From NCBI RefSeq assembly GCF_014873945.1, contig NZ_JADBEC010000002.1, positions 868,001-932,000 of the forward strand: 64,000 nucleotides of DNA, given 5' to 3'. The translations under genes were made by a program, and so were the position numbers. Source of the DNA: Rhizobium viscosum (GTDB lineage Bacteria > Pseudomonadota > Alphaproteobacteria > Rhizobiales > Rhizobiaceae). This document shows positions 53,347-57,376 of the stretch, piece by piece. How positions within the stretch are numbered: the first letter of the stretch is position 1; each line of letters starts with the position of its first letter. Below the pieces are notes generated by a model. The model was not told where the DNA came from. It searched no databases and was given only the letters and a program-made list of their open reading frames with translations.

Positions 53347-53712
53347 TTACCGGGTGTGTGCTCCTCCAGTGTGATGACCTCTCATTGCCCCGCTTCGGCG
53401 AGGCTTTTGTCGTCGTCTACCGGCCTTCTTTTCCTCTTGCATGTCATCCGGCAGGACGTGCATCCTCGATGCATGGGCTGCCTCCACGAACGCTTGGCGC
53501 GCCACCTCCGAATCCAGATAGAGCTGCATGGCGTCGATTGAGGTCATCAACGCGTGATGGAATGGAGCGGGGTCGTTTTCGAGATGCGGCCATTGTTCAC
53601 TGAGGAGGAATGCAGCGAGATCCTCGACACTACGTGCCTGGCGATATTTCCCCACGCCGTCGATCTCGACGTGAAGCGGACGGATCGGTGTTGAGCTCTG
53701 AAGATTGTCCAT
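53347..53712 (-). CDS. DUF982 family protein
   Basis: The 121-residue protein has the DUF982 layout: VEIDGVGKYRQARSVEDLAAFLL, EQWPHLENDPAPFHHALM, and SEVARQAFVEAAHASRM at the end of the domain, then a basic, low-complexity tail (residues about 90-121). DUF982 proteins are very common on rhizobial plasmids, and their function is unknown. It marks the beginning of a patchy accessory stretch. Confidence 0.8.
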   Translation of the reverse strand: MDNLQSSTPIRPLHVEIDGVGKYRQARSVEDLAAFLLSEQWPHLENDPAPFHHALMTSIDAMQLYLDSEVARQAFVEAAHASRMHVLPDDMQEEKKAGRRRQKPRRSGAMRGHHTGGAHTR

Positions 53713-54716: not shown

Positions 54717-54859
54717 TGGCGTTGACAAAACTCTCTTACGTACAAAGGTTTGAGCGTTAACGCGGTTAAGTTCAGCTAGCTTTTCCGAATTTTCATTGAA
54801 TATCAAATCTCGATAAGGCTTCCCTCGTCGTTCAATACTGCATATCTCGGGTGGGCGGG

Positions 54860-56653
54860 ATGTCGGTTCTTATACGTAGCAAGGCCATATACGTGTTCAC
54901 GGATGCGCGAATGCTTCCGGCAGCCTGCTGCGCACTTCTTTCTGTCCAACGCAACAGTCAAAGGAACGATATCAAGCCGATAATTGTCGGCATCGATTTG
55001 CCTGTGGACCAGAAAGCTCGGGTTGCGACCTTCAACGTCGTCAACGGCATCGATATCGACGTCGTCGATTTCACTTTTCCCACCGATACACCCGAGACGG
55101 CAGGCCGCTGGCACAAGTCGACGCTTGCGCGCCTCTATCTCGATAAGCTGATGGGCGAGAAGCTGGAGCGCGTTCTTTACCTTGATGCGGATATATTGGC
55201 CGTCGGCAATGTCGATCCACTCTTCGATGTCGATCTCAACGGCAAGGCGATCGGTGCGGTTAACGACTACCTCATTGCCTTCCCCGACAAGATCGGACGG
55301 CTGGAACGGGAGCTCGGCCTCGACCCGGGAGCGGGATATTTCAATGCTGGGGTTTTTCTCATGGATTGCGCCGCCATCCGGGCCGGCGGCTTTTTCGAGA
55401 CGGCGCGTTCGCTGCTCAGATCAGGGCAATGCTTTGCCTCGAACGACCAGGATATTCTCAATATCGCCTTTCGCGGGATGTGGCAGCGGCTCGACAACCG
55501 ATGGAATGTCCAGACCGGGATCATGCCGTATATCCGCAATGCAGTGCTCCTGCATTTCACCGGACGTCGCAAGCCGTGGGATTTTTCGGTTCAGGCTGGG
55601 CAGTCGGCCTATGCCGAGATCTATTCGAACATGCTTTCGAAAACGCCGTGGTCGGGATTTGTCAGCCAGCGCAGCGCCATCCGGAAAGCAGCCGACTATC
55701 TCCTGGCGCTCGGCAAGCGCGCCGGCGCGATGAACCGCTCCCAACAACTGAAGGCACATTTTGGCGCGAGTGAGATACCGAGGGCTGAAAGGAACCCCGG
55801 ATCCGAAAATTCCGGAAGCCACGTCTTTCACACGCGGGGCGCCGATGCGTGGCGTGCATTCTTCAATCGCTATTCGCACATCGTTCTGGTCGCCAATAGC
55901 GAGGCGCTCGATCCGCAGCGGATGCGCACGGAGTTTCCCGGCGATACGTTGTTCGTCTTCTTCAACAAGGTCTACAAGGTTCTCGACGACAGTTTCCCCG
56001 GGCATGCCATTCTTGTGGCACGCAGCGGCATGATGGGCGCCAATATCGTCCATCGGCGGGAGGTGGACGAGGTCCTAAAATTCTTCACGTCGGACAAGTT
56101 CCTCGGCGTTTTGAATATCCGTACGGCACCCGAAGAGCACTTCAGCCCCGTCGGCGCATTCAACGGTGCGACAGTCATGTACAGCGATCTCGAGACGCTG
56201 ATATCGGAGCACTATCCGCCGGACAAGATTCCGACGAGCGGCTTTGCGCTGGTTGCGTGGATGCGGGAGCTTCAGCTGACGCCGAAGATCGTGCTCGCCG
56301 GATTTTCCGGGAAACGGAGTGAGCGATGGAAGGTCTTCGACGTTCATGACTGGACATTCGAACGGACCTTTTTCAGGCTTCTGGCGCGAAGAGGTATCAT
56401 CACCAGCGCCGAACATGCGACGCCGTCACGCTTCGATCTTCTGACCCGGCATTTTCCGGATGCGAAAAGCGAGGAGATCCAGGCGGCGATCAACGATGCA
56501 CTCTCCACACGGCTCGATCATGCGCTGGCCCTCATCGACGGCCTGGTGTCACTCACCAAATGGCAGCGGGCGCTCGATCAGGCGTTCCGCAAGGCGCGGC
56601 CAAAGACCCGCAAGCAGCGCGCGCTCGACCGCGAGAAGAAGCAAGCTTCCTGA
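54860..56653 (+). CDS. Two-domain glycosyltransferase: GT8 domain plus a second transferase-like domain
   Basis: The 597-residue protein has an N-terminal GT8 domain (residues about 8-270): IYVFTDARMLPAACCALLSV, WHKSTLARLYLDKL, the DxD motif LYLDADILAVGNVDPLF (109-111), GYFNAGVFLMD and FASNDQDILN. The second domain (about 325-520) has PTSGFALVAWMRELQLTP, IVLAGFSG and VHDWTFERTFFRLLARRG, an order that resembles sialyltransferase-type (GT29-like) folds; that likeness is my reading. A basic C-terminus follows. ATG at 54860 or GTG at 54851 are both possible. It probably modifies a surface polysaccharide. Confidence 0.8.
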   Translation: MSVLIRSKAIYVFTDARMLPAACCALLSVQRNSQRNDIKPIIVGIDLPVDQKARVATFNVVNGIDIDVVDFTFPTDTPETAGRWHKSTLARLYLDKLMGEKLERVLYLDADILAVGNVDPLFDVDLNGKAIGAVNDYLIAFPDKIGRLERELGLDPGAGYFNAGVFLMDCAAIRAGGFFETARSLLRSGQCFASNDQDILNIAFRGMWQRLDNRWNVQTGIMPYIRNAVLLHFTGRRKPWDFSVQAGQSAYAEIYSNMLSKTPWSGFVSQRSAIRKAADYLLALGKRAGAMNRSQQLKAHFGASEIPRAERNPGSENSGSHVFHTRGADAWRAFFNRYSHIVLVANSEALDPQRMRTEFPGDTLFVFFNKVYKVLDDSFPGHAILVARSGMMGANIVHRREVDEVLKFFTSDKFLGVLNIRTAPEEHFSPVGAFNGATVMYSDLETLISEHYPPDKIPTSGFALVAWMRELQLTPKIVLAGFSGKRSERWKVFDVHDWTFERTFFRLLARRGIITSAEHATPSRFDLLTRHFPDAKSEEIQAAINDALSTRLDHALALIDGLVSLTKWQRALDQAFRKARPKTRKQRALDREKKQAS

Positions 56654-56689: not shown

Positions 56690-57376
56690 ATGACCGATAT
56701 CGTCAACGTCTATGTTGGTTTTGATTCAAAGGAAATTGTCGCCCATCACGTGCTGTCGCAAAGCATTCTGGAAAAATCGAGCGCGCCGGTGAGAATCACG
56801 CCGATCTACCTGCACAATGTCGCAAGCATATTCACGCGTGAGCGCAACGCCCTGCAGTCGACCGAGTTCTCCTTCTCGCGCTTCCTGACGCCCTATCTCA
56901 GCCAGTATGAGGGATGGAGCCTCTTCATGGATTGCGACATGCTTGCGCGCGCGGATATTGCCGACCTCTGGGCGCTACGCGACGACCGCTATTCCGTCAT
57001 GTGTGTGAAGCACGATTACCAGCCGAAGGTCGAAACGAAGTTTCTCGGCCAAGTACAGACGAAATACGAAAAGAAGAACTGGTCGAGCCTGATCCTCTTC
57101 AACAATGCGAAATGCAGGGCGCTGACGCCTGATTATGTCAACACTGCAACCGGGTTGCAGCTGCACCAGTTCAAGTGGCTCGACGGCGACGATCTGATCG
57201 GCGAGCTACCCATCATCTGGAACTATCTCGTCAACGAATATGACAAGCGCGATGACGCGAAGATCGTGCATTTCACAGATGGGGGACCCTATTTCGACGA
57301 ATACAGGAACGACGATTACGCCGAGGAATGGTTCGCGACACGCGAGCGCATGCTACACGTCCAGCAGCGTGGCTGA
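56690..57376 (+). CDS. Glycosyltransferase (GT8-like, DxD type)
   Basis: The 228-residue protein has VNVYVGFDSKEIVAHHVLSQSI at the start, FSFSRFLTPYL, the DxD-like DCD at 81-83 (SLFMDCDMLAR), SSLILFNNAKC and a C-terminal HFTDGGPYFDEY. It is a short single-domain transferase that follows the two-domain enzyme by 36 bases, so the two probably act on the same glycan. AGGAGA precedes the start. It is soluble, with no signal peptide or membrane segment. Confidence 0.82.
   Translation: MTDIVNVYVGFDSKEIVAHHVLSQSILEKSSAPVRITPIYLHNVASIFTRERNALQSTEFSFSRFLTPYLSQYEGWSLFMDCDMLARADIADLWALRDDRYSVMCVKHDYQPKVETKFLGQVQTKYEKKNWSSLILFNNAKCRALTPDYVNTATGLQLHQFKWLDGDDLIGELPIIWNYLVNEYDKRDDAKIVHFTDGGPYFDEYRNDDYAEEWFATRERMLHVQQRG

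Follow-up and report, generated by a model that had tools for sequence, protein, structure and literature searches.

A Rhizobium viscosum gene joining an LpcA-like GT8 domain to an LpcB-like domain of predicted GT29/GT42-like fold

We analyzed a 64,000-nucleotide stretch of contig 2 of the Rhizobium viscosum genome (hereafter, the window), in which one open frame encodes two glycosyltransferase-like domains. The coordinates of this fused gene, of its parts and of the gene downstream are collected in Table 1. A GTG at 54851 is an alternative to the ATG at 54860 as the start of the frame. The surrounding genes are ABC-transporter and sugar-catabolism genes, and an LPS cluster is absent there. 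A promoter and terminator scan gave no signal better than that of shuffled sequences. Upstream, on the minus strand (window positions 53347-53712), lies the gene for a DUF982 protein (E 4e-8). A DUF982 gene is also found about 11 kb from an LpcB-like gene in a Sinorhizobium meliloti region (L080). The initial annotation had reported a second GT8-like gene downstream, and such a gene is indeed present at 56690-57376, with a PF01501 match (E 4e-4) that falls below the cut-off.

Table 1. Features of the fused gene and the gene that follows it, in window coordinates
Feature	Coordinates	Strand	Basis or remark
Fused gene, 597 aa	54860..56653	+	Single open frame; stop at 56653
GT8 domain, LpcA-like, residues 15-241	54902..55582	+	Pfam PF01501
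DxD motif DAD, residues 109-111	55184..55192	+	DAD in 21/21 GT8-bearing rows of alignment A3
Linker, residues 285-322	55712..55825	+	pLDDT <50 in the full-length model
GT29/GT42-like domain, LpcB-like, residues ~314-521	55799..56422	+	AF2 model and fold searches
PTSG, sialylmotif-S-like, residues 458-461	56231..56242	+	Pro replaced by Ala in many relatives
AGFSG strand, residues 480-484	56297..56311	+	String confirmed in translation
VHDWTFE, sialylmotif-VS-like H..E, residues 495-501	56342..56362	+	Conservation and profile alignment
Helical C-terminal tail, basic end, residues 537-597	56468..56650	+	Predicted helices 537-579 and 584-596
Downstream glycosyltransferase gene (228 aa), weakly similar to GT8	56690..57376	+	Homologue in 22/44 domain-scan loci

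The N-terminal half is a GT8 transferase with a DxD motif, as had been proposed. Its match to PF01501 is strong (E 5.4e-39; 134.7 bits, where the cut-off is 24.3) and, besides the DAD at residues 109-111, it carries HFTG (232-235) and KPW (238-240). The Pfam model Glyco_transf_24 also matched in this half, below its cut-off. NCBIfam returned sub-cut-off rows only, headed by an LPS 3-alpha-galactosyltransferase (59 bits against 461). The top PDB sequence match of the protein, the galactosyltransferase LgtC (E 4e-12), runs through the GT8 half. When we searched the PDB with a model of the full-length protein, the best fold matches were WbbM (6u4b) and LgtC, and all assignable rows belonged to the GT8 half. 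Because the linker (residues 285-322) is of low confidence and the pTM is 0.49, this model gives no reliable placement of the domains.

The C-terminal half had been read as a second, sialyltransferase-like domain of GT29 type. We found no Pfam family matching residues ~314-521, no NCBIfam match in the C-terminal half when the whole fused protein was searched, and only chance-level rows in PHROGs (E 0.063 and 0.4). A Pfam search of 45 aligned C-terminal relatives gave TEX12 only (2 of 45 sequences, E 0.23), and a profile built from these relatives retrieved only a dynein light chain from the PDB (E 0.26). The GT29 model PF00777 had no match in the fused protein, in the 45 aligned relatives or in the R. 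viscosum genome, and the GT42 model PF06002 had none in the fused protein or in the genome. PF00777 was present in eight of the 398 genomes of a phylum sample, R. viscosum not being among the eight, and in one genome, different from that of R. viscosum, out of 385 in an even class-wide sample.

The AGFSG and HDW strings, which the initial annotation had singled out, were both found at the places claimed, the latter within VHDWTFE, with PTSG preceding them. None of the 45 aligned sequences departs from the His, Asp, Trp and Glu of HDW..E or from the Gly of TSG. We aligned an LpcB-like profile with a profile of six bacterial GT29-like proteins using hhalign. These six (alignment A2) come from six of the eight PF00777 loci of the phylum sample, L104 and L105 being omitted as more divergent; L107, a PF00777 locus from the class-wide sample, is not part of the alignment. 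Without guidance, PTSG...GF...VHDWTFE was paired with PSTG...GF...PHDFAAE, at a score of 30.3 (E 8e-4). None of 200 column shuffles scored above 21.0, and reversing the alignment gave 9.9. The hhalign probability of this match, which gives sialylmotifs S and VS their counterparts in the C-terminal half, is 24% at an Neff of about 2.3, and the match is confined to the S-VS region. For sialylmotif L, VANSEA and FFNK resemble VGNA and IRIN by eye, in a region that the hhalign match ends short of. The score exceeded those of all 200 shuffles, which makes a sequence relation to GT29 likely, the S-VS region being the part for which it is shown.

We then consider the predicted fold. An AlphaFold (AF2) model of the C-terminal half, computed from a 45-row alignment, had a mean pLDDT of 80.7 and a pTM of 0.70. 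In a Foldseek search of the PDB, ranks 1-10 were all GT29 sialyltransferases, including ST6GalNAc2, porcine-type ST3Gal1 (2wnb/2wnf) and ST8SiaIII, with E-values from 2.3e-3 to 4.2e-2 (none below 1e-3) and TM-scores of 0.35-0.42; matches were mixed from rank 11 onward. VIA-align placed named sialyltransferases in 19 of its top 21 rows (Z 9.2-10.9), led by Cst-I (2p2v; Z 10.9 over 178 residues at 3.8 A). The other two rows were 5cxy (“a Glycosyltransferase”) and HPPK (8sd5, Z 10.2), the latter tied with the GT29 rows, which scored Z 9.3-10.5 for this predicted model. Below the sialyltransferases came SteA (9.1 and 8.7) and thiamin pyrophosphokinases (7.0 and lower). A viral structure library returned an uncharacterised Mimiviridae protein first (E 2e-7) and a protein named “Glycosyltransferase family 29” second (E 3e-5). 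In both models the pLDDT falls below 50 in the loop just before H496 and lies at 56-67 around that loop, so the modelled position of this candidate catalytic base is unreliable. The C-terminal tail, which includes PKTRKQR at residues 581-587, has a pLDDT of 40-71 by block.

A confident non-transferase fold, the outcome that the initial annotation had named as contrary to its reading, did not emerge, but the HPPK, SteA and thiamin pyrophosphokinase scores do point toward a Rossmann fold of the MptE/HPPK kind. We nevertheless regard such a fold as very improbable, given that GT29 enzymes alone fill the first ten Foldseek ranks, that the S and VS motifs align and that glycosyltransferase genes are frequently associated with the domain. 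The sialyltransferase-like reading thus agrees with most of the best matches to the predicted fold and with the S and VS motifs, and it fails at the level of the Pfam family models. Because PF00777 and PF06002 were unmatched, we rejected a GT29 or GT42 family label and describe the C-terminal half as GT29-like by predicted fold and motif.

To place the domain among its relatives, we scanned our genome collection with residues 331-567 and obtained 44 loci from Rhizobium, isolates named only “Rhizobiales”, Paracoccus and Aureimonas. A GT8 domain is encoded by an adjacent, separate gene at 34 of these loci and is fused in one frame at seven, and three loci have no GT8 match. Across 31 Rhizobium two-gene loci (R. 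sullae apart), the GT8 protein is 41-45% and the C-terminal relative 52-58% identical to the corresponding half of the fused protein. Among the 100 genomes near that of R. viscosum, 52 encode the domain, and all 52 fall within the 60 genomes of its own genus. There were 54 domain matches in these genomes, 30 of which were made into loci with flanks of only about 1.5 kb: 18 have a separate GT8 gene, two are fused (one being the window), one is split and nine lack a GT8 match. In the class-wide sample the C-terminal profile was detected in one of 385 genomes, that of R. viscosum itself, and the LpcB-like family is therefore narrow. The LpcB-like domain, at 38-58% identity once the fused group and R. 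sullae are set aside, is less conserved than the 228-aa downstream glycosyltransferase, which shows 77-96% identity outside Paracoccus and 44-47% within it. The 228-aa protein adjoins the LpcB-like domain in several arrangements.

Plasmid records added 73 matches to the C-terminal domain, of which 63 are from Sinorhizobium. Rhizobium sp. WYJ-E13 carries the same fusion in one 605-aa frame (plasmid locus L108). Three of four 24-kb plasmid regions have no GT8 match, and S. meliloti and Paracoccus yeei are among the loci without GT8. Since a GT8 neighbour is absent at several loci, the acceptor of the C-terminal domain may vary. On plasmid p1 of Sinorhizobium sp. B11 (L078:10992-12840), the GT8 part is spread over two frames, which may reflect a sequencing error; the unbroken C-terminal part has been annotated by itself. 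R. ruizarguesonis UPM1133 has two LpcB-like loci (L030 and L041), one with a GT8 match beside it and one without.

The product name “3-deoxy-manno-octulosonate cytidylyltransferase” stands on 19 of the 40 plasmid matches listed and would make the C-terminal half a CMP-Kdo synthetase (KdsB). The cytidylyltransferase models of Pfam, however, match none of the 45 aligned sequences, and the fused protein has no match to the NCBIfam kdsB model (TIGR00466). The KdsB of this genome, above the cut-off, is encoded elsewhere (C1:1750750-1751442). The predicted C-terminal fold is sialyltransferase-like. We rejected the KdsB identity, which we hold to be extremely improbable. KdsB-named rows do not occur among the 50 Foldseek and 50 VIA-align matches listed, a result that carries no weight either way. 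The public name is misleading for these LpcB-like proteins, the profile and fold tests giving it no support, and the analysis corrects it for a domain that has no Pfam model.

Comparison with seven fused relatives gave dN/dS values of 0.17-0.27 for the GT8 domain, 0.21-0.67 for the linker and 0.13-0.24 for the C-terminal domain. Both halves are under purifying selection and, given these low ratios, both are maintained. Because seven of the 44 related loci are fused likewise and dN/dS is low, the fused frame is no chance reading frame. These values also bear on the idea that only the GT8 half is catalytic, with the C-terminal half degenerate or serving as a scaffold. The narrowness of the family (1 of 385 class-wide genomes) and its lack of a Pfam model would fit that idea, but the motif residues are invariant in 45 sequences, the C-terminal dN/dS is as low as that of the GT8 half, and at several loci a gene for the domain stands by itself, with no GT8 gene beside it. 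We consider a non-catalytic C-terminal half quite unlikely.

The separate genes to which both halves are homologous can be examined in R. johnstonii 3841, where 46 bp separate the end of a GT8 gene from the gene for a 289-aa C-terminal relative (L032:5926-6795). The fused protein is 43% identical to the former in its GT8 half and 55% identical to the latter in its C-terminal half. This pair sits on the chromosome between aatA-like and antiporter-like genes, which we named by eye. In rhizobia, lpcA, for a galactosyltransferase, and lpcB form such an adjacent pair. By gene order, rather than by annotation, the 3841 genes look like lpcA-lpcB, and the C-terminal relative would then be RL3439. A published account names RL3439 lpcB and assigns it to the LPS core as a CMP KDO transferase (PMC11103875). 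The inner core of R. etli CE3, reported to contain Kdo, Gal, GalA and Man (PMC4153317), fits a step in which a hexose and then Kdo are added.

The C-terminal domain is encoded only once in the R. viscosum genome, which also lacks a close second LpcA-like GT8 gene; its other GT8 matches are partial, the best being 34-39% identical over about 165-200 residues. The aatA-like gene (98% identical to that of 3841) lies at C1:3251978-3253177 and the antiporter-like gene (86% identical) at C1:3253308-3254399. Because these two matches are only 130 bp apart, too little space for lpcAB, the chromosomal lpcAB site is empty. With this site empty and close second copies absent, no other gene is a close candidate for either function.

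Overlapping, unfused genes are seen in R. sullae (L011), in which, provided that the second gene starts at the ATG at 2800, the two share 8 bp read in different frames (ATGCCTGA). We built trees from a chosen subset of 31 C-terminal and 25 GT8 rows; alignment A3, in which some loci give one half only, has 38 rows. Both trees join R. sullae to the fused rows, with support of 100/100 in that of the C-terminal half and 100/99 in that of GT8. The GT8 tree unites the fused rows in a single group (100/99), and R. sullae is its neighbour. The fused group reaches only 78/41 in the C-terminal tree, where long-branch warnings were raised, including one for R. sullae. A single origin of the fusion is probable, through loss of the frame break that parted two overlapping genes, which R. 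sullae still has as separate genes. One such event, following a change of frame, would be the most economical history.

From this evidence we propose, with moderate confidence, that the product of the gene is an LpcA-LpcB fusion acting in the assembly of the rhizobial LPS core, to which it would add first a hexose and then Kdo. For this enzyme we infer the donors, the acceptor, the order of addition, retention or inversion and the residue roles. The GT8 half would act with retention and place a hexose on the growing inner core; galactose, donated by UDP-Gal, is the likeliest one. The C-terminal half would then add Kdo from CMP-Kdo as an inverting enzyme with a His base. By analogy with GT29 and GT42 structures, H496 probably serves as the catalytic base, while CMP is probably bound by N346, N369 and PTSG. 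The fused gene would thereby stand in for the missing chromosomal lpcA-lpcB pair. The idea that one bifunctional enzyme adds two sugars in sequence, raised in the initial annotation, is plausible.

Because the unfused relatives resemble LpcA-LpcB, the donor of the C-terminal half is probably CMP-Kdo rather than CMP-sialic acid, and sialic acid is probably not involved. The half might instead use another CMP-activated ulosonic acid, of the sialic, pseudaminic or legionaminic type. Its predicted fold matches sialyltransferases that use CMP-Neu5Ac, and a genome of the same order has a CST-I (GT42) domain fused to GT8. On the other hand, the unfused relatives adjoin an LpcA-like GT8 gene and look like lpcB, to which a CMP KDO transferase function has been assigned (PMC11103875), and the plasmid product name, itself doubtful, refers to Kdo. 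We therefore view a different ulosonic acid as unlikely and retain CMP-Kdo as the probable donor. More tentatively, and with slightly less than even confidence, we suggest that the LpcB family is an unrecognised, CMP-Kdo-using bacterial branch of the GT29/GT42 enzymes and a counterpart of plant RCKT1, and that the fusion hands the hexose placed by GT8 to the Kdo site. If so, the GT8-plus-sialyltransferase architecture, which also exists as a GT42-GT8 protein, would have been reached here independently. The placement near GT29 and GT42 gives a testable mechanism (inverting, CMP-Kdo, His base) and ties bacterial to plant Kdo transfer by GT29 enzymes. The fusion itself offers a probe for the coupling of two consecutive LPS-core steps.

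Parts of this picture have precedents in the literature. The view that GT29-type enzymes are mostly eukaryotic, also expressed in the initial annotation, needs qualifying: bacterial GT29-like proteins have already been reported, and 19 of 23 were alphaproteobacterial (PMC5811610). An earlier paper, from 2014, placed bacterial sialyltransferases outside GT29 (PMC4202792), contrary to that later report. Bifunctional Gal/NeuAc enzymes of family GT97 have been described (PMC5811610). We found no report of a GT8/LpcB-like fusion in the open-access literature, as far as its text was accessible, nor any paper there that treats lpcB together with a sialyltransferase, or lpcA, lpcB and lpcC jointly.

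We compared the fused protein to known systems. LpcA-LpcB of R. leguminosarum, with gene names assigned by order, consists of a GT8 and an LpcB-like protein in the same order as in the fusion. In strain 3841 these are two chromosomally encoded polypeptides, whereas in the window they are one polypeptide on another replicon, and the chromosomal site is empty. GT29 sialyltransferases (among them 2wnb, 6apl and 5bo9) resemble the C-terminal half in predicted fold and in the S- and VS-like motifs. In contrast to them, the C-terminal half is unmatched by PF00777, bacterial and fused to GT8. The plant protein RCKT1, a GT29 protein, is proposed to be a CMP-Kdo transferase of RG-II (PMC11288761) and as such provides a precedent for a GT29 enzyme that transfers Kdo. 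The GT42 enzymes Cst-I and Cst-II also resemble the C-terminal half in predicted fold (Z 10.9 for 2p2v and 10.3 for 1ro7), whereas PF06002 is unmatched in the R. viscosum genome. The GT42-GT8 protein of the same order (L096:463-2331, minus strand) has a CST-I domain at residues 85-277 (E 2e-20) followed by GT8 at 347-544 (E 4e-15), and thus pairs a sialyltransferase-type with a GT8 domain in the reverse order. Because its CST-I match is a true one, that fusion would be a separate event. WbbM (6u4b), which makes an O-antigen backbone repeat with two GT modules (PMC11231755), resembles the fused protein as a two-GT bacterial polysaccharide enzyme with a GT8-like module; its other module, unlike that of the fused protein, belongs to another family, according to the title of the reference. 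Finally, KdoT of Acinetobacter is an LPS-core CMP-Kdo transferase other than WaaA (PMC12856342). It is like the proposed C-terminal activity in transferring Kdo from CMP-Kdo to the LPS core, whereas KdoT is described as GT-B and ELM1-like.
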